This document shows, piece after piece, positions 1,541 through 58,042 of a stretch of 64,000 bases of DNA. A program made the translations under genes and the position numbers. The DNA lies in IMG/VR virus record IMGVR_UViG_3300008117_003079, positions 1 to 64,000 of that record; one strand, 5' to 3'. The DNA comes from a virus. Position 1 is the stretch's first letter; each line of letters starts with the position of its first letter. The notes under the pieces are model-generated. The model ran no database searches and was not told where the DNA came from. It worked only from the letters and a program-made list of their open reading frames with translations.

Positions 1541-3154
1541 TTAAAGAGTTTCTAAACCATCTACGAGAATCTTACCGTAGAATTCTGGTCTTACGATTTT
1601 CTTTGCGTAACGAGTCATAACACCTCTACGTGGAGTAAAGTTGGTTGGGTCGTACACTAAAGGAGTCATAATCAATGGTACATAAGGTGCGTAAACTGCT
1701 CCAGTCTCGAAGAAGTTAGAACCTTTGAAACCTAACAAGATTACGTTTTCAGTCATGTAAGGGTTTTTGTAAACATCGTATCTGTTAGAGATTGAACCGA
1801 TGTTAGTTACACCTGCTGCGAAAGTCAACGCATCTTTACCAGGGTTTGCAGAGAATCCGTTCATTGATTCCAAAATTGTAGCTACGTTTGGAGAAACAAC
1901 CAAGAAGTTTGCTCCACCACGCATAGTCAATTGGTGAATTTTGTTAGATACTTTCTGCAATTTGATACCCAAAGTTTGGAACCAAGTATTCTTTTGGTAA
2001 GCCGAAGCAGCTGCTGCGTTAGAATCAATAGCGAATCCAGCACCAGTCCACTCATATCCTACTTTAGATGACCAGTATTCAGTTGTGAATGCGTTCTGCT
2101 GCAACATCTCAAGGATTTCCAAATCAATCTCCAAAGAGATGTATTCAGATAACATTTGAGTCAATTCAGCTTCTGCATCTACAGAGTGATATGCGTTCAA
2201 ATCTTGCGCCAATTCAGGAGTCCAAATTGCCTTCAACTTACGTGTTTTAGCAACGATAGGCTCTGATTTCAATTCCAATTCAATTTCTGGAATTGCCAAA
2301 TCTGTTCCTCTATCTTCGAAATCACCACGAGAAATATCAGTAGGTTGTACGTGATATGCCAATGATACACCAACAGTTGTAAGGTTAGATAAACCAGTTA
2401 CAGATGCAACGAATTCAACATTTGAACCATTTTTAGTTGTGTATTGTGGATAGTATCCTGTTACAGAACCTGTTAATAAAGTTGGTTCGAAAGCTCTAAC
2501 ACCATTGAAATCAGCATCAGCTGGTAAAGCTACAACGATTTTCTTCAATGTGTTACCTGCGAATGATGCAGAAACTGAACCAGAAGATAAATCATAATCG
2601 ATATCAGCTAAAGATGCAGATGCAAAAGTAGCAGTGATAGCAGCAGTAGCGTTGTTGATTGTATAACCAAAACGTCCTGCACCATAAAGACCTCCTTCTG
2701 GAGATTGAGTTGAACCTAGTTTGTTACCAGCTGGAGATAAAGAATCTTTACCGAAAGTACCACTGTTACCAAACAAAGATGAACCTGTGAAATTTGGATT
2801 ACCCGCTGGGTTAGTACCATATTTGAAGTCCATGTAGAAAATAAGACCTGATGGTAAGTTCATTGGTTGAACTGAAACGAATTCTTTCGCTGCAATAGAA
2901 CCGAAGATACGTCTTACCAAAGGAAGAGCCACACCAGCCCACTCTTCAGAACCTGAAGAAGTACCAGTACGAGTTGCCTCATCCAATAATTGTTTAGCCT
3001 GGTTTTCTAACATTACTGCCATACCATGCTTTGTAGTTTCAGAACCTACTCCTTCAAGTAGACCTGTTCTTTCCCATTTGCCTTTCAAACCTCTGGTTTG
3101 CTCAAGCATCACGCTCTGTGGGTTCGCGCCGCTCATTAATTTTTTAATGTTCAT
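1541..3154 (-). CDS. gp23: Major capsid protein, T4 gp23-like
   Basis: 537 residues, close to T4 gp23 (521). Around residues 95-115 the string VQPMNLPSGLIFYMDFKYG matches the T4 landmark VQPMNSPTGQVF. The HK97-fold shell protein assembles the hexameric capsid lattice. T4 gp23 loses its N-terminal 65 residues through gp21 protease; here L57-D58-E59|A60 fits the L-x-E|A rule at the equivalent place, giving a mature shell protein of about 478 residues. It lies directly after the scaffold gene and is followed by a strong terminator. The start MNIKKLMSG has an A/T-rich leader without a Shine-Dalgarno sequence. Confidence 0.95.
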   Translation of the reverse strand: MNIKKLMSGANPQSVMLEQTRGLKGKWERTGLLEGVGSETTKHGMAVMLENQAKQLLDEATRTGTSSGSEEWAGVALPLVRRIFGSIAAKEFVSVQPMNLPSGLIFYMDFKYGTNPAGNPNFTGSSLFGNSGTFGKDSLSPAGNKLGSTQSPEGGLYGAGRFGYTINNATAAITATFASASLADIDYDLSSGSVSASFAGNTLKKIVVALPADADFNGVRAFEPTLLTGSVTGYYPQYTTKNGSNVEFVASVTGLSNLTTVGVSLAYHVQPTDISRGDFEDRGTDLAIPEIELELKSEPIVAKTRKLKAIWTPELAQDLNAYHSVDAEAELTQMLSEYISLEIDLEILEMLQQNAFTTEYWSSKVGYEWTGAGFAIDSNAAAASAYQKNTWFQTLGIKLQKVSNKIHQLTMRGGANFLVVSPNVATILESMNGFSANPGKDALTFAAGVTNIGSISNRYDVYKNPYMTENVILLGFKGSNFFETGAVYAPYVPLIMTPLVYDPTNFTPRRGVMTRYAKKIVRPEFYGKILVDGLETL

Positions 3155-3183: not shown

Positions 3184-4437
3184 TTATTTAATAATACCTG
3201 CTAATTTCTTAAATCTGTTAGCAAAATTAGCTGATTCATTGATTACCGCTTTAGATTGAGCAGGTTTTGTAGATTTAACTGCTTTACTAGCGATACCTTC
3301 TGAAATAGCCTTTTTAGTTAATTTGTTAGAAGATGAAGTATATTTGAAATTCTCTGCTAATGTAGAGAACACTAATTTAACCTCTCTTACTGATTTTGTT
3401 CTATCCAAAGTTTCAATCACTTTCACTTTTTGTTCGTTAGTCATGTTATGAGCTCTGAATAATTTGTTTGCAAACAATAATTTGGCGTTCAATAAGTTCA
3501 CCTCATTAATAGTTTTTTGAAGAGTTCTGATAGTTCGGTACGCCTCATTCAAGTCTTTCTTTAGAGATTCTGCCTTTGGCTCTTCTTCACTTGAACCATA
3601 CTCATCTTCCATTTCTCTCAAGATTTCTGCTAAATCAACCGTATCTTCATCTTCTTCTTCACCTTCGTTAGTTACCACTACTTTAGGGTCTTCACCTTTA
3701 TCAGTACCTGCTTCTGAACCATCTGCTAAATTTTCGTTAGCTGGGAAAGGGTTTTCTTCGTATTCTTCTTCTTCACCTTCCATAGCTGGCTCTTCTTCAT
3801 CACCTAACTGTGCTTCTAATTCTCTGATGATAGCTTCCAATCCCATTTCGTCTTCTTCTTCACCCTCCATTGGGTCTTCTCCAAAAGAATCTTCTTCACC
3901 ACCAGCCATTGCCATTGGGTCTTCTTCTTCTGTTGCTGCGAAAGGGTCACCTTCTTCTTCACCACCGAATTCATCTGCACCACCAAATTCGTCTTCACCT
4001 TCTAATTCTGCTAATCTTGCTTTTAATTCAGCAATTTCTGCATCCTTATCAGATTCTTCTTCACCACCGAAGTCGAATTCATCTTCTTCGTTAATATCTG
4101 CTACTTTTTTGTAGTCAGTACCTGCTGCCTCTGGCTTACCACTATCTTTCTTTACACCTACTGATAAATCAGTAATTGCATCGTAAGATGGATTTGCTCC
4201 AGGGGTTTCAGGGTATCCAGCATCTGATTTAGACCCGATACCATCTGAACTTAATTCCTCGTCTACTTGTTCTGCATCATCTTCCATTTCTGCTTCTGCT
4301 CTCATCTTTTGAGATAAGATAGATTGAAGTCGTGGAGTAAATGCCTCTTCAAGCGCAAGTTTTGCGTTTGCTAAAGCGGTTTCTTTAACGGCTTTGGCAT
4401 CAGCGATTGCTTCTTTCAATAATTTTGAATTTGCCAT
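3184..4437 (-). CDS. gp22: Prohead core scaffold, T4 gp22-like
   Basis: 417 residues in three parts: a basic/helical N-terminus (ANSKLLKEAIADAKAVKE), an extremely acidic middle (about residues 50-300, long Glu/Asp runs), and a helical C-terminus (LNAKLLFANKLFRAHNM ... VREVKLVFSTL) typical of gp22 of marine T4-like phages. Scaffold proteins nucleate the prohead and are then degraded by the gp21 protease; many L/I-x-E sites are visible, for example L7-K8-E9|A10. It is encoded just before gp23, as in T4. The acidic repeats create long antisense ORFs that are not genes. Confidence 0.88.
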   Translation of the reverse strand: MANSKLLKEAIADAKAVKETALANAKLALEEAFTPRLQSILSQKMRAEAEMEDDAEQVDEELSSDGIGSKSDAGYPETPGANPSYDAITDLSVGVKKDSGKPEAAGTDYKKVADINEEDEFDFGGEEESDKDAEIAELKARLAELEGEDEFGGADEFGGEEEGDPFAATEEEDPMAMAGGEEDSFGEDPMEGEEEDEMGLEAIIRELEAQLGDEEEPAMEGEEEEYEENPFPANENLADGSEAGTDKGEDPKVVVTNEGEEEDEDTVDLAEILREMEDEYGSSEEEPKAESLKKDLNEAYRTIRTLQKTINEVNLLNAKLLFANKLFRAHNMTNEQKVKVIETLDRTKSVREVKLVFSTLAENFKYTSSSNKLTKKAISEGIASKAVKSTKPAQSKAVINESANFANRFKKLAGIIK

Positions 4438-6540: not shown

Positions 6541-7131
6541 TTAATTTAATTCTATTATAATTTCTCTCATTAAATCTTGTGATTTACACCACTTACCACA
6601 TTCTTCTGCCATTTTAGCCCACTGCTTTGATTCATTCATTGGTGCCATAAATGCTCCATGTGTGGATGGATTAGAAACGAAATCCCAACCAACCAATTCG
6701 AAATCTTCCTGAACCATTACGGTCCCATCTTTTAATTCCTTTACTGAACCTAATCCTCGTGATGAAATACCTAAACGGATATTATTTTTTAATAATTCTT
6801 TTAAGATATTACCAGATGGAGTTGAAAGAATTTCTACTACACCACATACATCATCACCTTCCCAATAAATTTCTCTAATGTTGTGGGATACATTTTTTAA
6901 GTTGATAACAGGAGAATCTGGATGGTCCAACTCACCTAGCGCTCTACGTTCTTTAATAAGTTGTTTGTATTTTGCACATTCTCTTTCTAAAATTTCTCTA
7001 GGATAGCGTCTACCATTTTGATTAGCAGCACCTGCTCTTTGTAAGATGCCCTTTACCAAATATGTTCCATTTTCTTCTTGTTGAAGTTTTGCTTCAAACA
7101 AATGGGTTTCTATCAATAATCCTTTATTCAT
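6541..7131 (-). CDS. gp21: Prohead maturation protease, T4 gp21-like
   Basis: 196 residues. Landmarks of the family are visible: NQNGRRYPREIL (about 38-48), GELDHPDSP with likely catalytic His70, GISSRGLGS with catalytic Ser123 or Ser124, and FELVGWDFVSNPS including Asp150. The serine protease sits inside the prohead, cleaves scaffold and shell precursors after L/I-x-E, then itself. An L11-F12-E13|A14 site near its own N-terminus fits self-processing. It starts two bases after the stop of the preceding gene. This protease is the probable processing enzyme for the large multidomain proteins of the region. Confidence 0.9.
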   Translation of the reverse strand: MNKGLLIETHLFEAKLQQEENGTYLVKGILQRAGAANQNGRRYPREILERECAKYKQLIKERRALGELDHPDSPVINLKNVSHNIREIYWEGDDVCGVVEILSTPSGNILKELLKNNIRLGISSRGLGSVKELKDGTVMVQEDFELVGWDFVSNPSTHGAFMAPMNESKQWAKMAEECGKWCKSQDLMREIIIELN

Positions 7132-8267: not shown

Positions 8268-9941
8268 TTATTTATCCGTAGTAGATTTACCAAAAACTCT
8301 TTGTATTTCCGGTCCTTTTGAAGAATCTACTTTTGATTTTATAATTTTAAGTGCATCTTTTTTTAATTCACTAGGATGAGAATTAAACCATTCTGAAATA
8401 TCTTCATTACTCTTTATTGCTCTTCTTCTTTGTCCACCATCATCGATATAATTTGTGTAAAAATCATACCATCTTAATACGGAATCCGCTAATTCTTTTC
8501 CAGTTTTGGCAGGTGTGTTTTGACTTGCTTCGTTTACTGATTCGTATTTAATCATATCTGGATTAAACTTTTCAAAATTCTTTCTTGCCCATTTTACGGC
8601 AGCTTCATAAGAATTGAATTTAATCCTATCCTGTTTGAACCCCTTTGCCTTATTTAAGAAATCAATATAAACTTTTTCTTCGTTTATAGATTCTTGAATT
8701 TTATTTCTTTTCATCCATTCTTCTAAATTACGAATTGCTGAATCAAATACTCTACTTCTATCATGGTCCATTCCAAAGTTTTTGAAGTATTCTTTCATCA
8801 TCTGATACGGTGAATCTAATTGCTCACCGTTTCTTTTCATATCTTTGATATTCATAGCAACTTGATAAGCTGCCATCTTACCACCAAAGAAAATAGCTTC
8901 GGATGTAATATCATTCCAAAATCTATCCACCAATGAAGATAATGGTTTTCCTTTTGAGCGATACCCAAATTTTTCGTTACCTAATGATTCTACAAAGTAA
9001 ATCAATCTTTCTGCGTTGGTTACTTTATCTAAAAACTTTTCCTTTACCATTCCTTGAAGAACTTTTTCACCCTGTGATGAAATTGGAATTTTGTTGATTC
9101 CTAATTCTTTCATTTTAGAATCAACATCACGAGGCATCATAAATTCGTTTATTGATTTACCTTCACTAATTACTTTATTACTTGGAAATGATACTGATGG
9201 TTGGTTTCCAAATGTTTTATCAACTTTAGCATTGATTCCAAATTGTGATTTTAACATTTTTACAACACCACTGCCAAACTTTATATCAGTAAGTTTAAGA
9301 TAAATGTAATTTCTATTAGGTGCATTCTTAATTTCACCACTTACAAACTTTGAACCTATTAATTTAATAATATCATCTACTACATCTGCTGCAAGGTATC
9401 CTTTAAGTTCGGATTCTTTTACTACGGAATATCCAGTTAAATCGGCTTGCCTCTTTCCCTTTTTCTCTTCACTATCTTTACCACTAAATGCGAATGGAGT
9501 ATTGTATCCTTCAACACCACCAGTAGTATTCATCTCATCTACTTTTAATTCGGCATCTTTGTACATATCACTAACTTTGTCATTCAATTCTGCTGCCAAT
9601 TTTTTCTTTTGTGCAGTTAGTGTTTTTAGTTGTTGTATGTGTTGTTTTTCGGCAGGAGTACCTTTGGATTTTTTATATGCTTCTAAACTCTTTTCCATAG
9701 AATCTAAAACTTTTGCATAATCCGTTTGAATGGCCTTAACAGAACGTAATTCAGCCAACACCATTTCTTTTATTTTATCAGGCAATCCTTTGTGAGATGT
9801 TGATGCAAAATCTTTAGCATCTTTATCACTCATTGAATCTGCTGCTTTTTCAACTTCTGGGGATGGGTTTTCCATATCGCCCTTTTGAGCGGCGTGTACC
9901 ATACCCATAAATTTTTGTTGTGCTTTAGATACTGCTGGCAT
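8268..9941 (-). CDS. Multidomain prohead protein with DUF3008-like N-terminus
   Basis: 557 residues. Residues 1-56 (MPAVSKAQQKFMGMV ... DFASTSHKGLPDK) fit DUF3008. A coiled-coil stretch (about 60-135) and GGVEGYNTPFAFSG (141-154) follow. Then come modules divided by L/I/V-x-E sites: I258-S-E260|G, I264-N-E266|F, I419-N-E421|E and V469-N-E471|A. These look like gp21 protease sites, so the protein may be a core polyprotein giving several small domains: about 170-258 alpha/beta, 267-420 helical, 423-470 small alpha/beta, and 472-557 helical. No catalytic motif was seen. It lies between gp20 and gp21, the core-gene position of T4. Confidence 0.55.
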   Translation of the reverse strand: MPAVSKAQQKFMGMVHAAQKGDMENPSPEVEKAADSMSDKDAKDFASTSHKGLPDKIKEMVLAELRSVKAIQTDYAKVLDSMEKSLEAYKKSKGTPAEKQHIQQLKTLTAQKKKLAAELNDKVSDMYKDAELKVDEMNTTGGVEGYNTPFAFSGKDSEEKKGKRQADLTGYSVVKESELKGYLAADVVDDIIKLIGSKFVSGEIKNAPNRNYIYLKLTDIKFGSGVVKMLKSQFGINAKVDKTFGNQPSVSFPSNKVISEGKSINEFMMPRDVDSKMKELGINKIPISSQGEKVLQGMVKEKFLDKVTNAERLIYFVESLGNEKFGYRSKGKPLSSLVDRFWNDITSEAIFFGGKMAAYQVAMNIKDMKRNGEQLDSPYQMMKEYFKNFGMDHDRSRVFDSAIRNLEEWMKRNKIQESINEEKVYIDFLNKAKGFKQDRIKFNSYEAAVKWARKNFEKFNPDMIKYESVNEASQNTPAKTGKELADSVLRWYDFYTNYIDDGGQRRRAIKSNEDISEWFNSHPSELKKDALKIIKSKVDSSKGPEIQRVFGKSTTDK

Positions 9942-11100: not shown

Positions 11101-12843
11101 TTACTTTTTGGTTAAATCTTCTGTCAAAATAGTTTTTTTATTACCATCCATATCCTTAAAAACTTCAAAATATGAACTCTTTCTCGGTTTGTATGGAACA
11201 GAACCTTCTTTTGCTTTAAGAGTTTTTATTCCTAATGGGTCTCTACCTTCAGGATGGTCATCATGCCCATATCTAACAGGGTCTTTTGGTCTACCAACCT
11301 GTCCATCTAATTCAAGTTTTAACTTATTCAACTCCTCTTCAACATTAGTTGGTCCACCTTCAGTTCCAGTTTCTTTTGCTGGGTCTACACCTTGTGTTTC
11401 AATTGAAGTTAAACGGAACATTTGTTTAGTATCATCTAATACCTGCAATGTTAATTCATCCTGCTCATCTTTTGCCATCTTCATTACGGATTCATACATC
11501 CATTCTTTGGAGAACATCTTTGTTTGTTGCATTTGTTGAATTAGGGCTACTTTTGAAGTGTATAGTTCAACCTGCTCCTGCTCATAAATTCTAGATGGAA
11601 CTGTTAATTCCAATGTAAAGTCTGTTAAACGGTCATCGTTAATACCTTGTGCGTATAAATGAACGATTGCAATTTTAGTTAATTCGGAAATCAATACTCT
11701 CTGAACTCTTTCAATTGTTTTGGCAAAACGAATATCCATTGATGCCAATGTTGCTTTACCATTAGTATCTTCCTCATAACCCAAATATGCTTTTGGAATT
11801 TTAAGTGCAGCCATCAACTTCCCTTTTAAGTAATTGATGTCATCAATCATATTGTACTCTAAACCTTTTAGGGTATCAATTGAAGTTCCATTATCACTAC
11901 CTCGAACTGGCATATAATAATCTTCAATAAGATTCATCATATTGTACTTTAAGTTGTACTCACCCGTTCTTTCATCAACAAATGGAACTTTCTTTGATGC
12001 GTTGATGATTTTTTGCATGTAGTTATCCACTTCGTTTGGTGGGATATTACCAACATCCACTTTAAAAATTCTCTTTTCAGGAGCTCTCATTACTCTGTGG
12101 ATTAACATTGCATCTTCCATCAACATTAATTGTTTCCAAACTCTTCTAGCTCCTTCAACCATAGATTTTCCATAAGGTAAGAAGTTTGAATCTGAATTTA
12201 AACGGAAGTGAGCAATCTCATAGTTTTCAAATTCCTTTTTAGTAGTTTGACCTACTGCCATATATGGGTTTTGATATGGGGCATATACGAATTTAACTCT
12301 TTGTGGATTTTCAGGATCAAATCCCTCTACTCTACTCATTTCGTATGATGATAATGGCATTACGTTTATAATTCCCAATTCATCTGCAATTTCTAATTCT
12401 AAAAAGAAATCACCATATTTTACCAAGTTTCGTGTCCAAGGCCATAAGTTGAACTCAATGTTAAGAATATCGTAAAATAAGTTTTCTAATATTTGTTTGA
12501 TGTTATCATCATCGTGATGAATTTTTAAAATACTACCATGTTCGTTTTTAGCGGTACATTCATCTGCATATACATCCAATGCGGATGATAAAATGGGGTC
12601 CATATCCATTGAATCGTAATCTCTAAACAAATCGATACGAACTTGTTGGTATGCCATTGCAGATTCCACCCCACCTACACCGTAGTTACTTACTTTGAGT
12701 TTCATATAACGGTCTACAAGGTTAGTTGTCATATTCTGATACTCATCAGTATCGACTATTTTAACTCCTTTTTCCGTTTTTCTTACTATGGTATTTGTTG
12801 AAAATAATTTCTGTAACCTACCGAATAATGTTTTATCTGCCAT
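11101..12843 (-). CDS. gp20: Portal vertex protein, T4 gp20-like
   Basis: 580 residues (T4 gp20 is 524). The first 120 residues carry the family pattern: a short basic start, MAYQQVRIDLFRDYDSMDMDPILSSALDVYADEC, then HDDDNIKQILENLFYDILNIEFNLWPW. Later landmarks include GKSMVEGARRVWKQLMLMEDAMLIHRVMRAPEKR and LKIPKAYLGYEEDTNGKATLASMD. Dodecameric portals form the DNA entry vertex and nucleate prohead assembly on the membrane. The C-terminal ~90 residues (TETGTEGGP onward) are Gly/Pro-rich and longer than in T4. It lies downstream of gp17, with one intervening gene; gp18 and gp19, which separate them in T4, are absent here. Confidence 0.92.
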   Translation of the reverse strand: MADKTLFGRLQKLFSTNTIVRKTEKGVKIVDTDEYQNMTTNLVDRYMKLKVSNYGVGGVESAMAYQQVRIDLFRDYDSMDMDPILSSALDVYADECTAKNEHGSILKIHHDDDNIKQILENLFYDILNIEFNLWPWTRNLVKYGDFFLELEIADELGIINVMPLSSYEMSRVEGFDPENPQRVKFVYAPYQNPYMAVGQTTKKEFENYEIAHFRLNSDSNFLPYGKSMVEGARRVWKQLMLMEDAMLIHRVMRAPEKRIFKVDVGNIPPNEVDNYMQKIINASKKVPFVDERTGEYNLKYNMMNLIEDYYMPVRGSDNGTSIDTLKGLEYNMIDDINYLKGKLMAALKIPKAYLGYEEDTNGKATLASMDIRFAKTIERVQRVLISELTKIAIVHLYAQGINDDRLTDFTLELTVPSRIYEQEQVELYTSKVALIQQMQQTKMFSKEWMYESVMKMAKDEQDELTLQVLDDTKQMFRLTSIETQGVDPAKETGTEGGPTNVEEELNKLKLELDGQVGRPKDPVRYGHDDHPEGRDPLGIKTLKAKEGSVPYKPRKSSYFEVFKDMDGNKKTILTEDLTKK

Positions 12844-16415: not shown

Positions 16416-19400
16416 TTATTCGTAAAATATACCTAATATCTGATTTAGTGGTGCAAATGTGCCTGTAAGTTTGTATGTATTACCCTTATACACAAACACT
16501 ATACCTTCATTAGGAACTATCTTACCCTTACCACCAATACTAGCTAATCTACTTAATTCCATTTTTAATTTAGCTATTTTAGATACATCACCACTACCTC
16601 TTACTTTTTCCGCAGTAGATTCCAATCTGTTTTTCATATCGGCAACTGCTGCATTTGGATTTGCAGTTAAAACTGAACTCATAAACGAAAGAACATCGGC
16701 ACCAACTCCCAAAAATATCTCTTCAAATTGTCTAACATTTTCTTTTTGTTGCTTTACTACATTTACTTTATCATTATCCATTGCCCACTTTTGAGCTTCC
16801 TTATCTACAATTGCATTTAAACGGAATGATTTATCACCAAACGCCCATCTCTTTATTAATGCATCTCTTTCAAATTTCTCTAATTTAACTTTTGATTTAT
16901 CTATAAAATTAGACCACCATGCTTGATGATATTCGGAAACACCATCGTTGTTAGATAATTGAAATTCAGATTGTAATTTTTGTAATTTACTTAAATACTT
17001 ACCTTGCTTTGAACTCAAATTTTCATTTTTAGGAAGTTGTGTAACAGGAGGTCCTTGTATAGTATATTTAGATTGAACATCCGCATTCACTTGCTTAATC
17101 ATCCCTGCCAATTTAGTTGCTGCAGATTGGTCAGCAGAAACTGCTTTACCACTTTCATCATAACAAGTTGTGTTATGAAATACCAATAAAGCCTGTCCGT
17201 AAGGAATAACATTTACAGAAGTTGGCCATATTACTTCCAAATTCATAAAACAATGTCCTTCATTAAATATTTTCTTTCGTTGTGGTTCCGAAAGAGATTG
17301 GATTGCCGCTGATAAATCTTTCATTGCAAAATTATATGCATCGGTTAATCCACCTCTACCACTAAATTTAGATGCAACATCTTCAATTCCCATTGCGTTT
17401 GCTCCACCATTTGCCAAATGTCCTTTGTTTCTTGCTGCAATCAATCTACCATTCTTCCAGCTAATTGCTAATGCCTGTCCATCGGTTTTTTCTCTTGTCA
17501 ATTCTAACTCACCAGTCAATGCTCCTGTGATTATATTTTTTAAATCACCAAAAGTTAAATCCATATCATCAAATGGGTGAGACATGTGACCGTATGCACC
17601 ACCTTCAGTTAAAATCGTTTCATTTGTCTTTTTTTTTAAGTTTCTTTTTTGAAGAACTAATTTATTTAATTCTGAAAATAAATCAGCAATATCTTTATCC
17701 AATTTTTTTTCATCAGCTGACATTGGGGATTCAATATCTACATTGGAATAAAGTTTTTTCTTTTTAGCAATTAAAGCATCTACTTTTTTAAGTAAATCAT
17801 TCTTTGCCGTATCTAAATCTTTTATTATATCTTCCGTTGATGATTCGTTTAGCTTAACCCCCGCATAATCTAATCTATATTCATAATACGCCTTTTTAAT
17901 ATCAGCAGGAATCTTTGAATTTTTAGTGAATATTTGGTCTACCATCTTACGAGTATCATTTGATGATAGATTCCATTTTAACTTATTTTTATCTAATGTA
18001 AAGAAAGTATTTAAAGTAAAATCTATCTTACTCAACATTGGTTTCAAAATTTCATTTTCAAAAAATGAATCGTATTCCTTTCGCTGCTCTCTCTCTAAAT
18101 AATTAAGAGCGAAGTTCCCATCATACAAATACGCTTTTAATGCTTTTCCAACCATCACCAACACATACTTTTTATCGTTAGGACCTAAATACTTTTCATC
18201 GGAATTACCAATCACATATGTGTACTGATTACCTACCAAGTCCTTTAATTTTACTTCGTTTAATTTACCGGTATCCGTTTTAAAGAATGGACCTCTTCTT
18301 ACACTTCTAAAATCTAAACTCATTTCGTTTCCAAAAATCTCTTTCGGTGCAAGTACTTTTACTCTAATAGTTCCATTTTTGTTATCTACACCTATTGTTT
18401 CAAAATCAATTTCGGAGTATTTTTTACCTTTAAATCCTAAATTTTTACCAGTAATAAACTTATGAACTTTACCACTACTAACTGCCTGTGCTTCACTTAC
18501 AGGTTCATATCCATTATCTTCGGTATCTTTTATATTGGGTTGATGTCCTGGCTGTCTTTTTCTATTATCATCAAAATCTACAGTATCTAATTCAGCTGAT
18601 TGCCCAATATCGTTCTTGTGATTGTTTGTAAAATCTTTTACGGCTTGAGATATAGATTCACCACGTGGTATTCTAAATGTTGTTGCCTTCTTACCATTGA
18701 TTGTAGGCATTCCGTGGTCATCTTTACCAATATCTTTAACGGTAACTCTTTTATTTTTAAACTTACCCATTAAAACCTCATCACCCTTATCAACATCTAC
18801 ATTAATATCTTCTTTGACAAAATCAGTTTCAACATATTCTACACTTGGTAAGTTTTTTATAGTATATTTTATAGTTCTTTCTTCCGCATCATCATCACCA
18901 AATATAGCATCTGCTTTTGGAAAATCGGTTTGAGTGTATCCACCATTCGCATACCAGGATTCAGGTCTATCGGAATCTAATTTTCTTTTTTTACCTTTTT
19001 TAATAAATGAACCATCTGGAACATCTGCGGTATTTGCAGTTCCAACATTACTAACCTCTGTGTAAATTTGTTTGTTGATTCTACCATATTCTCTCATAAG
19101 AATACCTGCTACGGCATGTGCTTGGTTTTCAACTGGCGAACCATCTGCCCCATCTTTAACTTCGTTTCGTATAAACCCCAACTCATCTTGTTTTCTATGA
19201 ACCATTTCATGTGCAAGTGTTCTCAATATATCCGCAGTTAATCTACCTTCAGTTGCAACATATATTGATTTACTAATCGGGTCATATCCACCCAACGATG
19301 TTTTGGCTTCTGCAAATTTTCTACCACCAACTAAAGTTATTTTTGGAGTTTCTTTTAATTTTAATCGTTTAGTTGCAAACTCTACAAAATTTTGAATAGA

Positions 19401-21611
19401 TTGTTGTTTTGTTTCTGAAAGATTTTCTTTCATCAAATCCGAAGCATTAGCCATAGATTGATTTTTAGTTCCTTCTTTTTTATATCTAGCAATCGTTTGT
19501 ATTAATTGTTCATCGGATAGTTTATAGTTTTGCATTATTTCTAATGTTTTTTCTATAAAGTTTGGTACAAATTTTTTCGTATCAAATCCTTCTTCTCCCT
19601 TTTTATTTTCAAATATACCAGCTACTCCCAATGCAATACCACCTGCAGAAGCTTGTGCCGCATTAGCACCTAAAGCTTCAAACGCAGAGTGTTTTATTAT
19701 GTCTTTAACTATGTAAGACCCCAAATGACCTCCACCAAATTTAGCTGCTATTTTTGCTCCGGCTGCTTGTGCAATACCACTAGCACTAGCACCTTTTGAT
19801 GCTGCAGATATGCCACCCATTAAACCACCTGTCGTTGCAATTGAACCCATTATTATTGCGGAAGTTTTTACAAAATTTCCAAGACCCTTTTTTTGTTTTT
19901 GACTTTCATTCCAAGACTTTTCTGCTAATTCCCGTTGTTCTGGAGTTAAATCTTTTCTATATACAGGTTCTTTTTTTGTTTTTGGTTTTCCTAATATAGT
20001 TTTAGCCTGTATAGGATTACCATTTTCATCTTTAATCGGATGTCCATGCTTATCTTCTTTGTAAACAGGAACATCTTTCATTTTAGGTTTTACTTTTCCT
20101 TGAAAATCTAGTTTACGAGTTGTTGAATCTGGTTCTGTAAAATCATCCCAATGTTTAGTTTTACCTTCTGAATCTTTAACAGCCCCAAATCTTCCAGTAG
20201 TTGCCAATGATTTTATAGCACTAGCAGTTCCCACCAGCATTTCTTTGTTATGCTTGAATGTATGCATAATACCATGCCCTACATACGATGCTGCTTTTTT
20301 TAGTATATTCATAGCCCCTTTTCTTTCTTCAGATTGTGGGTTATTTGCTTTATCAATTGATTCGTTATCTCCTTTTGATAAACCTTTTCTGGCATCAGTT
20401 ACTTGTTGACTTGTTTCCGCATCTTTCTTTTCTTTATCAGATTTTTCAGCAGACGCTTTTAATTCAGAACCACTTAATTTTTGAGGTGATGTAGGCGGTG
20501 GCGGAGGTGGTGGTGGTGGCGGTTTTGGGACACCTTGTTTTTGTTTCGTTGCATCCACCTTACCTTGTGCAGTAGCTCCCTTATTTACAGGTTGTCCAGG
20601 TTGTGATGGTTTTGGTTGATTTGCAGGTGCATCCGATGGTCCCTGTGCCATTCCTTTTTTCTTAACTGCATCAGCTTCAGCAGGAGTTAGGGTTCTGATT
20701 TTACCATCTTCAGATTTATGACTCGCAGGTTGTCCTTCTTTACCATAGTATCCACCACCCAAATGTTTCAATCCCATTTTTTCGGCTTCGGATTCTTCTT
20801 TGAAATATGTTCTGGTAAATTCTTCGAACATTTCTTCCATTGCAACTCTACCAATTATTTCTGCAATTGGATTATATAATTCGTCCGTTGGATGTTCAAT
20901 TTGATGTCGAGTAGGATGTGGTTCGGGTCTCATTTCATACGATGGCTTCGTATTATTAGTCTCATCTACTGAACCCGTTGGTGCTCCATTAATATATCCT
21001 CCTGGAAGATTTAATCCAGTTCCTATACCGCCTGGAAACCCATTTTCATTTAATTTACCTGTTATCATACCGAATACCTCTTTATCAAATTTTGGATATG
21101 CTTTTAAAAATCCCTTTTTCTTTTCATCATCACTTCCCTTACCTAACCAATTACGAACATCTGTTCCACTAATTGGGTTTGGTTCGGCGGGAACGGCATA
21201 TACATATCCAATTTCATCGTATCCGTATCCAGCTTTTTCGTTATATGGTTTAAAGTATTTACCCGCTAATCTATCTGCATCCTTTTCTCCAACTGCTGCT
21301 ACATACGCAGTAGTTTTACCATCAAATTGAGATAATATTTCTTTTGGAGCATACGGATTACGAACTTGAACTATCTTATCTTCCGGTATTCCAAACATTG
21401 TAGTAATTATTTTCACCTTCTCATTAAAATTAAAAGGAGATTTAGGACCTGATGTATCATTGGATGTTCCAATATATACATTTGATTTTCCAAATTTTTG
21501 AGCAAGCTTTAAATAAGAAACATAATGTCCCTTATGGAATGGTTGAAAACGACCTGAATATACTACTATGGTCCTTTTTACTATCGGTTTATCTTTTTCG
21601 TTCAAATTCAT
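16416..21611 (-). CDS. Giant prohead polyprotein: nucleotidyltransferase, zincin and ligase-like domains
   Basis: 1731 residues. Residues ~11-180: HxGH nucleotidyltransferase of the NMNAT/PPAT type (GRFQPFHKGH at 20-29, ISGTDVR at 147-153). A disordered Pro/Gln-rich linker has ten Pro at 364-373. About 577-667 is Ala/Gly-rich and hydrophobic, possibly membrane-active. Around 742-850 lies a zincin with HEMVH (801-805). Residues ~1341-1731 show DNA/RNA-ligase superfamily motifs: K1375-T-D-G, LEVI with Glu1459, EGIVF at 1702-1706 and K1714. L-x-E sites fall at domain edges: E189|N, E733|T, E1256|S, E1336|G. It is likely processed by gp21 and possibly injected with the DNA. The start follows a TATATTTATA motif by 3 bases. 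Confidence 0.75.
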   Translation of the reverse strand: MNLNEKDKPIVKRTIVVYSGRFQPFHKGHYVSYLKLAQKFGKSNVYIGTSNDTSGPKSPFNFNEKVKIITTMFGIPEDKIVQVRNPYAPKEILSQFDGKTTAYVAAVGEKDADRLAGKYFKPYNEKAGYGYDEIGYVYAVPAEPNPISGTDVRNWLGKGSDDEKKKGFLKAYPKFDKEVFGMITGKLNENGFPGGIGTGLNLPGGYINGAPTGSVDETNNTKPSYEMRPEPHPTRHQIEHPTDELYNPIAEIIGRVAMEEMFEEFTRTYFKEESEAEKMGLKHLGGGYYGKEGQPASHKSEDGKIRTLTPAEADAVKKKGMAQGPSDAPANQPKPSQPGQPVNKGATAQGKVDATKQKQGVPKPPPPPPPPPPTSPQKLSGSELKASAEKSDKEKKDAETSQQVTDARKGLSKGDNESIDKANNPQSEERKGAMNILKKAASYVGHGIMHTFKHNKEMLVGTASAIKSLATTGRFGAVKDSEGKTKHWDDFTEPDSTTRKLDFQGKVKPKMKDVPVYKEDKHGHPIKDENGNPIQAKTILGKPKTKKEPVYRKDLTPEQRELAEKSWNESQKQKKGLGNFVKTSAIIMGSIATTGGLMGGISAASKGASASGIAQAAGAKIAAKFGGGHLGSYIVKDIIKHSAFEALGANAAQASAGGIALGVAGIFENKKGEEGFDTKKFVPNFIEKTLEIMQNYKLSDEQLIQTIARYKKEGTKNQSMANASDLMKENLSETKQQSIQNFVEFATKRLKLKETPKITLVGGRKFAEAKTSLGGYDPISKSIYVATEGRLTADILRTLAHEMVHRKQDELGFIRNEVKDGADGSPVENQAHAVAGILMREYGRINKQIYTEVSNVGTANTADVPDGSFIKKGKKRKLDSDRPESWYANGGYTQTDFPKADAIFGDDDAEERTIKYTIKNLPSVEYVETDFVKEDINVDVDKGDEVLMGKFKNKRVTVKDIGKDDHGMPTINGKKATTFRIPRGESISQAVKDFTNNHKNDIGQSAELDTVDFDDNRKRQPGHQPNIKDTEDNGYEPVSEAQAVSSGKVHKFITGKNLGFKGKKYSEIDFETIGVDNKNGTIRVKVLAPKEIFGNEMSLDFRSVRRGPFFKTDTGKLNEVKLKDLVGNQYTYVIGNSDEKYLGPNDKKYVLVMVGKALKAYLYDGNFALNYLEREQRKEYDSFFENEILKPMLSKIDFTLNTFFTLDKNKLKWNLSSNDTRKMVDQIFTKNSKIPADIKKAYYEYRLDYAGVKLNESSTEDIIKDLDTAKNDLLKKVDALIAKKKKLYSNVDIESPMSADEKKLDKDIADLFSELNKLVLQKRNLKKKTNETILTEGGAYGHMSHPFDDMDLTFGDLKNIITGALTGELELTREKTDGQALAISWKNGRLIAARNKGHLANGGANAMGIEDVASKFSGRGGLTDAYNFAMKDLSAAIQSLSEPQRKKIFNEGHCFMNLEVIWPTSVNVIPYGQALLVFHNTTCYDESGKAVSADQSAATKLAGMIKQVNADVQSKYTIQGPPVTQLPKNENLSSKQGKYLSKLQKLQSEFQLSNNDGVSEYHQAWWSNFIDKSKVKLEKFERDALIKRWAFGDKSFRLNAIVDKEAQKWAMDNDKVNVVKQQKENVRQFEEIFLGVGADVLSFMSSVLTANPNAAVADMKNRLESTAEKVRGSGDVSKIAKLKMELSRLASIGGKGKIVPNEGIVFVYKGNTYKLTGTFAPLNQILGIFYE

Positions 21612-54174: not shown

Positions 54175-54884
54175 TCCTCGTGTGAGTAGAATGATACTAT
54201 ATTATATTTAATATCATTCTTTACTTTTTCAACTTCATGGAATAAATTTTTATCAGAATCTAATACTACAAAATTAGGAAAAATTGGATTTACTTTAATA
54301 TCATTTCCATTTAAATCATGTAATATCAAATGCCCACCGTTTGATTCACCCCATTCATTATTTAAAAAATACAAAAATACACATATTCTGTTGTTAGGTT
54401 GTCCATCATCGTGTAATTTTATTTCGCAACCTTCATTGTAAAATTGCAGTTTTGTATTTTCAGTAAATCTACCAAACGATTTTTCAGGATAGTATTTTTT
54501 TACAAAGTTTTTTTGAAAATTTCTTAATACTTCATTGTTTATTTTTCCATTTATTTCTGAATTCATAGAGGTACCAAATACCCAAGTTGGATAAAATCCA
54601 CATTCTTCAATTTTTTTCAATTGATATTGATGTGCTTTATTATAAACATAATCGGCAGTATTTAAATCTTTATCATTTTTTAAATACCCATCATACACCA
54701 ATTCTTCCATATATGATTGGTCGTTGTATTTAAACCAATAATCATATCTAGAATGTCTTACAAAATTTGTATTATCTATATAATCTTTTATTTGTTTAAA
54801 CCCATCTAAATCGATTAGTTCGGAATAATCTTCCAACTTACCGTAAATGTATCCACTATTTCTGTAATTTTCTATACTTTCCAT
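54171..54884 (-). CDS. 2-oxoglutarate/Fe(II) oxygenase, prolyl hydroxylase-like
   Basis: 237 residues. The iron ligands are H158-D-D160 (HxD) and distal H216 (LFHEVEK), with KYNIVSFY (226-233) supplying the 2-oxoglutarate-side basic residue. YFLNNEWGESNGGHLILHD is the strand pattern of 2OG-FeII_Oxy_3 enzymes. Such genes are common in T4-like phages and may hydroxylate protein or nucleobases. It shares its start with the stop of the SbcDC fusion gene (one-base TAATG overlap), and its stop with the convergent RHH gene. Confidence 0.82.
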   Translation of the reverse strand: MESIENYRNSGYIYGKLEDYSELIDLDGFKQIKDYIDNTNFVRHSRYDYWFKYNDQSYMEELVYDGYLKNDKDLNTADYVYNKAHQYQLKKIEECGFYPTWVFGTSMNSEINGKINNEVLRNFQKNFVKKYYPEKSFGRFTENTKLQFYNEGCEIKLHDDGQPNNRICVFLYFLNNEWGESNGGHLILHDLNGNDIKVNPIFPNFVVLDSDKNLFHEVEKVKNDIKYNIVSFYSHED

Positions 54885-57800
54885 TAGAAATTAATTTTAC
54901 TATATCCATTTTCTTTTTTAATTTCAATCAATCCATCTACTATATCTCTCATTTGTTCTAAATGGGAAATTATCCATATAAAATCAAATTGAGTTTTAAG
55001 ATATTGCATCATCATAAATAGTGATGATAAATTATCTGAATCCAATGTGCCAAATCCTTCATCGATTACCAAAAAATTTGGACGAGGTAAGTTACACACA
55101 TTGATAAGAGCAACTCTAATTGCCAATCCACTAACAAATTTTTCCATACCACTACACATCTCCAATGGCCATTCTTGGTCATCATAAACAATTTTGGCAT
55201 TGATTGATTTTCCATCCATCTCCATCGTAACTCCAAAATCAACTACTTGTGCCAAAATATTATTTACCTCATTCTCAATTACAGGTAATGCTTTTGAAAT
55301 TAACTCATATGGGATTCCATCTCTCTTTACTGAATCCAAATAATAGGTATACAGGCGGTTCTTTTCTTCCAATGCCTTAACATCATTCATCTTCTGTTTT
55401 ATGTCCTCTATAAACGAAGATATGGATGTAATAGAACCATTTAAATTTGTTATATCTTTATTTAATTTACTAATATCATTTGCAATAGTATTTTTTGCTT
55501 TATTTAATTCAGAAATTTCACTTTCTATTTCTTTATTTCTAGAAATAGTATCTTCATTTTCATAATACTTATCTATATTTTCATCAATTGTATCTAATTG
55601 ATTTTGTAATAATTGTTCTTTAGTTTTTAAAGCACTTAATTCTATTTGTGTTTTTTCTAAAATAATTTTACTTCTAGAGTATTTGTTTTTTAGTTCATTC
55701 CACTCATTATATTGCTCTTCAACTCCATTTAAGGAATCTAAAACACAATTGATTGCAGCAACTTCATTAAAAGTATGCTCTACTGATATTTGCAATCCTT
55801 CTAAATCTGATTTTGCTTTTACTGCATCTTTCACAAATTCATTATCACAACAGAATTTACAATTAGGGTCATATTGGTGATTATTTAAATGTCCAATCTT
55901 TTCTTCAGCTACTTCTAATTGTTGTTTTGCTTTTTGGTATACTTTTTCTGCTTCAACTAAATCTTTGGATTGTTTTACAAAATCGTTATGAGCAATTTCT
56001 ATATCAACTTCATTGTCATCTATTGTGAATTTACATTTTTCAAATAGGGATTGTGAAACTTCGGTAAGTAAAATTTTATGTTGTTCAATTTTACTTTCTT
56101 TTAATTCATAATCAGTTTCTGCATCTTCAATCTGTTTCGATATAGAGTTTCTTTTTGATTCTAATAAAGATAAATCAAGATTAGAATCAATTGGAGTTAA
56201 TTCTCTACTTAAATTTACAATTTTATCATTTAATTCACTTACTTCCGTATTTTTATCACTTAATAATACTTCTAATCCCTTTAATTGTGATTTTTTTTCC
56301 AATAATTCCTTACCCTTTTCGGCAAGTTCTGTTGTAAAATCTGTTTTCTTAAAGTTTTTAATCAATACGGAAACTTCTCTAATATCTTCAGTTGCAGTAT
56401 CATATAGTTTATCAAAAATAGTTAAACCCATAAATTGTGCAAGAAGGTCTTTCCTTTCTGATTGTGATTTATCAATAAAAAGGGCATTATTACCTTGCAG
56501 TGATAGTGCAGTTAGTACAAAATCTTCATATTTTCCAACATATTGTTCAATAATTTGGTTTGTATCTCTTCTTTCGGTTCCATTTAGTGATGTTTTAGTA
56601 TCACCATCTTGTCTCCAAAATTGAACATCTACTTTTACATTTTTTCCTTTGTTAATCGTTTTAGCAGTTCTCTGAATACCATATTCTACCCCATCTATTT
56701 GAAAATATAGTGTACAATCAAAATCCGTTTTACGATTATTTAAGATATTAGATGCTTTATATGCTCTACTACTCTTATCATATAAACAAAACGATACTGC
56801 ATCAAATAAAGAAGATTTGCCCGCTGCATTTGGGGCAAATAATCCAACTAATCCGTTTAATTTTGTAAAATCAATTTTGTTACTTTCTCCATAACTAAAC
56901 ATATTTGAAAACTCAAAACGAATTGGTTTCCATTGAATGTTGCGTTGGATGTCATCTTGAACGATTCTACTATTTATATCTCTGTTAATCAATTCTAGCC
57001 CTTTTAAATCTTCAGGAACTACAAAAGGCATCATTCTCTCAATATACTCATTTATAAGTGAGTTTTGATAATTGATGTCTGAAATATCTTCAAAGTCTAA
57101 TTTGTTTAATCTATCACCTGTTTTAGATTTAGAAAGGGAATCGGTTCTAATAATTGTAAAATCCTCAACACCATATCTCATTTTAATTTCAGCCATTACT
57201 CTTTTAGTATCAGCGGAATCGGTATTAGATAAACGAACTCTCAAACGAGGTTTCTTTGGCATATCGGATACGATAGGAACTTTCCCATTATCAATATCCA
57301 TAGTATAATACCCATAATCGTTTTGGATATCAACTGCTTCGTAAGTAAAAGTATCCAAATCCCAAACGAGGAACCCATGTTTATCTAGGGTTTCACCAAA
57401 GTTTTGTTGAATAAGAGAACCAGCATAGACAACCTTACAACCTTTTGGAGAAATCATCTCTTGTCGTTTGTGAATATCACCTAATAAGGCTAAATCGTAT
57501 CCATCAAACATATCAGTTGTAAAATGACGAGATGAAACGGTGTATCCAATATCTGTTTGAGAATTATCAACTGGCCCGTGAAATAAAGCAATCTTTTTGT
57601 TTCCAAATATAGTATTTGCTTTTGGCCAATTTGCTTTATTATCAAAGATACTGAATACCGCAAAATCTATTCCACCAATACCATACACTTGAGTATCTTT
57701 GAGATATGTAAAGTTTGGTAAGTTTAAAGCATCTACAATTGGAGTAAGAACATCCAATCTATCAGAGTTATTCATATTACAATCGTGATTACCTGTAATA

Positions 57801-58042
57801 AGGATTGTTTCACAATGTTTAGAACACTCCGTAAATAACCAACTAATCTCCCTAACTAATTCAGGAGATAATTCTAATTTAGCATGAGCAATATCACCTG
57901 CTAAATAAATGATTGAATCATCCGTACCTCTTTTACGAATCTCCTCAAACATCTTTTCAAAAACCTGTCTGTACTCATTGTGTCTTTTCACATTACGGAT
58001 GTGTATATCTGCAATATGATAAATCTTTTTCAATCTACTCAT
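54884..58042 (-). CDS. gp47-gp46: Fused Mre11-Rad50 nuclease/ATPase (gp47-gp46, SbcD-SbcC)
   Basis: 1052 residues in a single frame. Residues 1-340: Mre11/SbcD phosphoesterase with DIH (12-14), GD (49-50), GNHD (84-87), His155 and GDIHKR (188-193). From ~370: Rad50/SbcC ATPase with Walker A ...APNAAGKS (403-410), long coiled coils, zinc hook C728-K-F-C731, signature SGMEK (964-968), Walker B LVIDEGFG (991-998), D-loop and H-loop His1027. T4 keeps these as separate genes 47 and 46; here they are one chain. It resects DNA ends for recombination-dependent replication. It overlaps the primase gene by 4 bases. Confidence 0.95.
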   Translation of the reverse strand: MSRLKKIYHIADIHIRNVKRHNEYRQVFEKMFEEIRKRGTDDSIIYLAGDIAHAKLELSPELVREISWLFTECSKHCETILITGNHDCNMNNSDRLDVLTPIVDALNLPNFTYLKDTQVYGIGGIDFAVFSIFDNKANWPKANTIFGNKKIALFHGPVDNSQTDIGYTVSSRHFTTDMFDGYDLALLGDIHKRQEMISPKGCKVVYAGSLIQQNFGETLDKHGFLVWDLDTFTYEAVDIQNDYGYYTMDIDNGKVPIVSDMPKKPRLRVRLSNTDSADTKRVMAEIKMRYGVEDFTIIRTDSLSKSKTGDRLNKLDFEDISDINYQNSLINEYIERMMPFVVPEDLKGLELINRDINSRIVQDDIQRNIQWKPIRFEFSNMFSYGESNKIDFTKLNGLVGLFAPNAAGKSSLFDAVSFCLYDKSSRAYKASNILNNRKTDFDCTLYFQIDGVEYGIQRTAKTINKGKNVKVDVQFWRQDGDTKTSLNGTERRDTNQIIEQYVGKYEDFVLTALSLQGNNALFIDKSQSERKDLLAQFMGLTIFDKLYDTATEDIREVSVLIKNFKKTDFTTELAEKGKELLEKKSQLKGLEVLLSDKNTEVSELNDKIVNLSRELTPIDSNLDLSLLESKRNSISKQIEDAETDYELKESKIEQHKILLTEVSQSLFEKCKFTIDDNEVDIEIAHNDFVKQSKDLVEAEKVYQKAKQQLEVAEEKIGHLNNHQYDPNCKFCCDNEFVKDAVKAKSDLEGLQISVEHTFNEVAAINCVLDSLNGVEEQYNEWNELKNKYSRSKIILEKTQIELSALKTKEQLLQNQLDTIDENIDKYYENEDTISRNKEIESEISELNKAKNTIANDISKLNKDITNLNGSITSISSFIEDIKQKMNDVKALEEKNRLYTYYLDSVKRDGIPYELISKALPVIENEVNNILAQVVDFGVTMEMDGKSINAKIVYDDQEWPLEMCSGMEKFVSGLAIRVALINVCNLPRPNFLVIDEGFGTLDSDNLSSLFMMMQYLKTQFDFIWIISHLEQMRDIVDGLIEIKKENGYSKINF

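Follow-up and report, generated by a model that had tools for sequence, protein, structure and literature searches.

The 1731-residue protein encoded at positions 16,416 to 21,611 of a DNA stretch of 64,000 nucleotides from an uncultured T4-like phage (IMG/VR record IMGVR_UViG_3300008117_003079, positions 1 to 64,000; hereafter, the window) is probably a head-targeted polyprotein, which a T4-type prohead protease would cut into several packaged enzymes. Comparison of the protein with its relatives points to this reading through the conservation of hydrophobic-x-Glu sites at the borders of its domains, whichever cassette stands upstream, and through the presence of a gp21-like protease gene in the same head cluster.

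The polyprotein gene and its genomic neighbourhood

The 1731-residue reading frame described in an earlier note on this DNA was borne out, and it lies on the minus strand. Two full-length copies found elsewhere, L002 (on a contig of 201,940 bases) and L003, share 99.9-100% identity with the window protein, so the assembly can be considered reliable. A first scan of IMG/VR recovered full or partial copies at 31 loci. Two later scans, each of which confirmed more than 580 relatives, brought the contigs with relatives into the hundreds; the relatives used here are the 31 of the first scan and 80 kept of the >580 confirmed in each of the later ones. The protein had been placed next to the terminase, and both do belong to the same head cluster, with two small ORFs in between rather than in direct adjacency. 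This cluster is of the T4 type, and its terminase, portal, prohead protease, probable scaffold and capsid protein are all on the strand of the polyprotein (a slash marks a predicted cut):

16416..21611, minus strand: whole polyprotein gene, 1731 aa
13439..15046, minus strand: terminase large subunit
11101..12843, minus strand: gp20-like portal protein
8268..9941, minus strand: second cassette-type head-region protein, with DUF3008 and ESVNE-spaced segments
6541..7131, minus strand: T4 gp21-like prohead protease (phrog_207, E 1.3e-53)
3184-4437, minus strand: probable scaffold, judged from its position and acidic composition
1541..3154, minus strand: gp23-like major capsid protein, predicted maturation site LLDE/A at residue 59

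The LLDE/A of the capsid protein sits directly before the conserved region, and can be compared with VSE/A in phage immuto and LTE/A in T4. Among cultured phages, the closest terminases belong to Flavobacterium phage immuto (54%) and Microcystis phage Mel-JY01 (52%), the latter being a phage for which a literature search found no paper. Elsewhere in the window, positions 54884-58042 encode a 1052-aa protein with SbcD-like (residues 5-337) and SbcC-like (324-1051) family matches, that is, a fused nuclease of the T4 gp47/gp46 type, and positions 23276-47930 hold an extended array of sugar and radical-SAM genes, among them a transketolase-like gene, several of the radical SAM type and one for a nucleotide-sugar epimerase, which may serve to modify the surface or the DNA.

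Cassettes and candidate cleavage sites of the window protein

The motifs quoted in the earlier note are all found at the residues given there (GRFQPFHKGH at 20, ISGTDVR at 147, ten prolines at 364-373, HEMVH at 801, KTDG at 1375, E1459, EGIVF at 1702 and K1714). Its four L-x-E sites, after residues 189, 733, 1256 and 1336, are correctly positioned and all supported as border sites. Similar sites after residues 5, 729, 852 (YTE), 934, 1040 and 1119 had been overlooked, and those after 5, 852, 934, 1040 and 1119 should be added to the four. The resulting segments, all on the minus strand, are as follows:

21597..21611, minus strand: residues 1-5, very short candidate N-terminal propeptide MNLNE/, ending in LxE
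21045..21596, minus strand: residues 6-189, HxGH nucleotidyltransferase (CTP_transf_like, NadM-like), ending in KLNE/
19413..21044, minus strand: residues 190-733, low-complexity linker and Ala/Gly-rich hydrophobic segment (577-667), ending in LMKE/NLSE/
19056..19412, minus strand: residues 734-852, zincin cassette (HEMVH 801-805, ENQAHA 828-833), ending in IYTE/
18810..19055, minus strand: residues 853-934, small 'WYANGGYTQ' cassette, ending in FVKE/
18492..18809, minus strand: residues 935-1040, small beta-rich 'GKFKNK' cassette and linker, ending in VSE/
18255..18491, minus strand: residues 1041-1119, 'KVHKFITGKNL' cassette, ending in KLNE/
17844..18254, minus strand: residues 1120-1256, further cassette, ending in KLNE/
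17604..17843, minus strand: residues 1257-1336, probable coiled-coil cassette, ending in ILTE/
16419..17603, minus strand: residues 1337-1731, RNA-ligase-like nucleotidyltransferase, interrupted by a long helical insertion

Conservation of the border sites

In phage T4, gp21 cuts after L/I-x-E, and the role of the capsid-targeting sequence (CTS) has also been described (PMC9026906). A hydrophobic-x-Glu site precedes the Gly-Gly of the ligase-like domain in 83 of 83 relatives of the first set, and in 25 of 25 unrelated upstream contexts it reads [LI]xE/GG, with L or I at -3, Glu at -1 and a variable -2 residue. An extra site is often present five residues further upstream, as in [IL]NE/SLLLE/GG. 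The same double-site layout is found in the jumbo phage LR756500, where a standalone ligase begins with MKFLKSYEEFLNE/NLILE/GG, an N-terminus that resembles a capsid-targeting sequence. Over all sets, the border site before the ligase occurs in 40 of 48 cases, and those of other cassettes in unrelated contexts follow the same trend (internal nucleotidyltransferase 14/15, HKFI 7/8, kinase 4/4, coil 5/5, SH3-like 12/15), whilst the C-terminal end of the zincin is [YF]xE/ in 25 of 25 variants. For the WYA cassette, no site was found within the range first tested. Residues other than Glu are mostly far rarer at the borders, with Lys also common in some wider search ranges.

A similar picture emerges from the points at which architectures diverge. 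Of the architecture breakpoints, 43% have an [LI]xE motif no more than 10 aa away, as against 16% of random positions, compared with 8% and 13%, respectively, for the control [LI]xD, bearing in mind that the homologs behind both comparisons are not independent; the enrichment is strongest with Glu. Within the head-gene cluster, [LIV]NE occurs 17 times as against 5.6 in shuffles, a value matched in 0 of 500, whereas outside the cluster in the same window it shows no enrichment (15 versus 15.7). Hydrophobic-x-Glu is also found inside folded domains of the window protein (residues 64, 77, 1442, 1451 and 1560), and therefore the motif by itself does not define a site. In any case, the comparison across related phages that the earlier note had called for shows that the sites are kept at borders whichever cassette lies upstream.

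Putative N-terminal propeptides and a predicted internal start in a marine clade

The relatives begin with MNLINE/, MNLIKE/, the longer MKGLAKFLVETILGE/A, MNKLTRWLVETILTE/A or MSLKKLVEEITKPILQE/G, which resemble the capsid-targeting propeptides of T4, such as MELITELFDE/ of Alt. A propeptide ending in L/I-x-E is clear in many relatives, whereas the candidate in the window protein has only the five residues MNLNE/ and is too short to be judged alone. Together with the persistence of the sites and the presence of a gp21 homolog, these N-termini lend strong comparative support to the earlier proposal of a precursor with L-x-E sites for a gp21-like protease; the cutting itself stays a prediction.

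At 21 distinct marine loci (including L118, L120, L122, L127, L141 and L184), Met replaces Glu before the Gly-Gly of the ligase, and therefore the protease site is not universal. The DNA of this clade reads AAAGGAGTTATTATTAATG or close to it, with a Shine-Dalgarno sequence (AAGGAG) nine bases 5' of the in-frame ATG, which is retained in L127 despite a change of the encoded residues from KE to RS. A Shine-Dalgarno-like core is present in 8 of 9 distinct 18-mers, compared with 8.8% of the other in-frame ATGs of the same ORFs. Methionine aminopeptidase removes Met before Gly, and an internal start followed by this removal would yield a Gly-Gly N-terminus identical to the one expected from cleavage after Glu. 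The existence of two routes to one N-terminus suggests that the free ligase is the functional product.

Predicted enzyme domains

The assignment of the N-terminal domain as a nucleotidyltransferase is solid, since it combines Pfam, phrog and PDB family matches with motifs: the domain matches CTP_transf_like PF01467 (24.3 bits for a cut-off of 21), phrog_395 and NadM-type structures in the PDB, and both the HxGH and ISxTxxR motifs are present, as HKGH and ISGTDVR. In some relatives (L133, L177, L033), GPHH or GIHH replaces HxGH, which suggests an altered or lost activity in these enzymes, and the GPHH variants imply that the substrate of the nucleotidyltransferase may differ.

For the C-terminal domain, the ligase-superfamily motifs pointed out in the earlier note hold, and the fold matches are weak to moderate. 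Its invariant residues follow the order of ligases (EKTDG, AARNK, the Glu of NLEVI, EGIVF and YKLTG), so that motif I KxDG, the motif III Glu and motif IV EGxV are all present, with K40, D42, G43, E124, E367 and G368 invariant (A1/A2 numbering). The K-x-K of motif V is not matched, YKLTG having a single lysine, and for this reason the domain is named RNA-ligase-like. A Pfam scan of all 14 ligase members gave no ligase family match, the contig of the phage itself gave no match to PF09414 (RNA_ligase), a scan of genome contigs with the ligase domain gave no relatives, and searching PDB sequences with the ligase profile (hmmsearch) returned chance matches only. Alignment by hhalign to T4 RNA ligase 2 (Rnl2) sets EKTDG on EKIHG and the next RNKG on RTGP (P 0.037). 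In Foldseek searches of the PDB, archaeal and T4 RNA ligases are at or nearly at the top for both models (E 0.007-0.2, with low TM-scores), and among viral models the family itself comes first and phage RNA ligases next, the latter with E-values short of significance.

A different line of evidence comes from a split intein, found in three contigs (L025:8956-15455, L022:3117-9646 and L023:2-3996) exactly between the K and T of KTDG, with a free-standing endonuclease-like ORF of 249 aa between its halves. The N-half runs CIAGDTII...VTPNHRMYV and the C-half ends in YANDILVHN/T. An intron in L022 and L025 was considered and rejected in favour of the split intein, as the flanks read CIAGDTII... and ...VHN/T. 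Inteins usually settle in active sites, and their insertion at KTDG therefore supports a catalytic role for its lysine.

The zincin fares much like the ligase, with the motifs upheld and a weak-to-moderate fold match. The HExxH helix and the downstream Glu ligand are kept in relatives as HEMVH or HEMAH and ENxA, and the model of the relative L072 has IrrE/PprI-type structures among its matches (Foldseek probability 0.90-0.99, E of at least 0.02). The same model also matched GNAT-like structures, perhaps because of an extra L072 cassette in a region modelled with low confidence. A standalone zincin relative of 124 aa occurs in Synechococcus phages (L034:11992-12366; S-SRM01), and in B23 it has a tail-fibre gene and tRNA genes nearby. 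The signature domains of polyvalent proteins (ArdC-N, DdrB-ParB, MuF and others) gave no Pfam match in the window protein and 16 relatives, a search that distant versions could escape. To our knowledge, not all polyvalent proteins have a signature domain.

Shuffled cassettes around a constant enzyme pair

The nucleotidyltransferase lies N-terminal to the ligase in 74 of the 77 ORFs with a visible start (first and two later scans), and two of the three exceptions have it in an adjacent ORF. The gap between both enzymes ranges from 23 to 1345 residues and is filled by shuffled cassettes, in about 40 arrangements, a few of them shortened by contig ends. Some cassettes are also present in other head-region proteins, among them the coiled-coil type of residues 1257-1336, which recurs in those of relatives. 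Some marine members carry a P-loop kinase cassette of the zeta-toxin/AAA_33 type (L133:2313-6230, L184:2430-6245 and L177:642-5183), flanked by hydrophobic-x-Glu sites. A phmmer search of this cassette against the PDB gave no match, so a polynucleotide kinase and a zeta-like kinase are indistinguishable here.

Proposed processing and alternative explanations

The most likely pathway would start with a short N-terminal capsid-targeting propeptide, which would carry the chain into the prohead core. During prohead maturation, the gp21-like protease would cleave after hydrophobic-x-Glu at every cassette border, producing the nucleotidyltransferase, the zincin, several small cassettes and the RNA-ligase-like enzyme. 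The released enzymes would stay in the head and most likely reach the host together with the DNA. The sites also lie at the joints of cassette exchange between related phages, which would make the cargo swappable without loss of processing. The nucleotidyltransferase and the ligase, nearly always paired, probably serve a single pathway, and this pairing, as well as the kinase cassette of some relatives, fits the repair of RNA ends or of NAD. Repair of nucleic acids or NAD at an early stage of infection, as suggested in the earlier note, is a guess and a doubtful one, even if it is the most plausible option.

The sites could also be unrelated to cleavage, if the chain were packaged whole like P1 DarB, as a giant internal or polyvalent protein that stays uncut, with its Glu-ended linkers serving as recombination joints or flexible spacers. 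Head packaging of a very large protein is known from the 250 kDa DarB of P1 (PMC9024508), and cassette shuffling by itself requires no cleavage. However, such linkers would not have to keep Leu or Ile at -3 and Glu at -1 around a free -2 residue in 25 unrelated contexts, and an internal start at the identical residue indicates the release of a free ligase, all of which makes whole packaging very unlikely. Cleavage might be due instead to the zincin of the chain itself, an extremely improbable explanation: no HExxH zincin was found in the polyproteins of the marine relatives, which keep the same border sites, and the site pattern is of the gp21 type, with a gp21 homolog in the same cluster. Nevertheless, a zincin is present in the window protein, and auto-processing by zincins has been put forward in the literature on polyvalent proteins, P1 DdrB among them (PMC5512222).

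Cleavage by the prohead protease would likewise be expected of a prohead core or scaffold protein, whose middle cassettes would be fillers, degraded and lost like the fragments of T4 gp22 and gp67, with the end enzymes alone, or none, remaining. The free variation of the middle cassettes agrees with this alternative, as does the fate of the T4 core proteins, which are cleaved at a number of L/I-x-E sites and for the most part lost from the head (PMC9026906). On the other hand, the active-site residues of the zincin are conserved across relatives, and the P-loop kinase and nucleotidyltransferase cassettes look enzymatic, which renders a core or scaffold role unlikely.

Comparison with known systems

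Some of these features are found in each of three known groups, namely the internal proteins of T4, the head proteins of SPN3US and the polyvalent proteins. As with T4 Alt and IPI-III, which depend on a CTS and gp21 processing, there is a head-cluster location, a gp21-like protease, hydrophobic-x-Glu sites and, in the relatives, a short N-terminal propeptide; however, T4 internal proteins have one cargo per gene and terminal propeptides, whereas here many cassettes share an ORF and the sites are internal. Like polyvalent proteins (Iyer et al. 2017, PMC5512222), the family joins several unrelated catalytic domains in one ORF (nucleotidyltransferase, zincin and ligase-like), in varied architectures and with a proposed delivery along with the DNA, but here the borders carry sites of the prohead-protease type, and a constant nucleotidyltransferase-ligase pair is not described in the sections available of that article. 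In SPN3US and phiKZ, whose protease is related to gp21, several internal proteins are cut after a short Glu-ended motif and many are presumed to be ejected; by contrast, 13 of the 14 sites mapped in SPN3US by mass spectrometry remove N-terminal propeptides, and no multi-enzyme chain is described in the sections available of these reports (PMC10052503, PMC7411985).

The closest parallels in a cultured T4-like phage are found in immuto (MW353177), where gp182 is a nucleotidyltransferase and HExxH protein with LAE/A, VKE/G and MAE/G between segments, and gp191 is an ESVNE-spaced protein near the terminase. Both lack a ligase cassette and the nucleotidyltransferase arrangement is another one; gp182 is regarded here as an analogous protein. 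The immuto gp182 (L199:4088-6811) is annotated as NadR, its N-terminus is Pol-beta-like, and it has two HExxH motifs. A search of the open-access literature found no report of a multi-enzyme chain released at internal prohead-protease sites.

Beyond the window protein, marine and freshwater T4-like phages might combine packaged enzymes through prohead-protease sites that act as standard joints, the constant pair, sometimes with a kinase, being an injected repair kit, and one clade having swapped the ligase site for an internal start that gives the same N-terminus. This extension is put forward tentatively. The ligase-like domain itself represents a family with no Pfam match, widespread in uncultured aquatic phages and nearly always paired with a nucleotidyltransferase. 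The polyprotein reading predicts exact neo-N-termini and, if true, a T4-type prohead protease would liberate several enzymes from one chain, going beyond the trimming of propeptides in a manner like the polyprotein processing of animal viruses.
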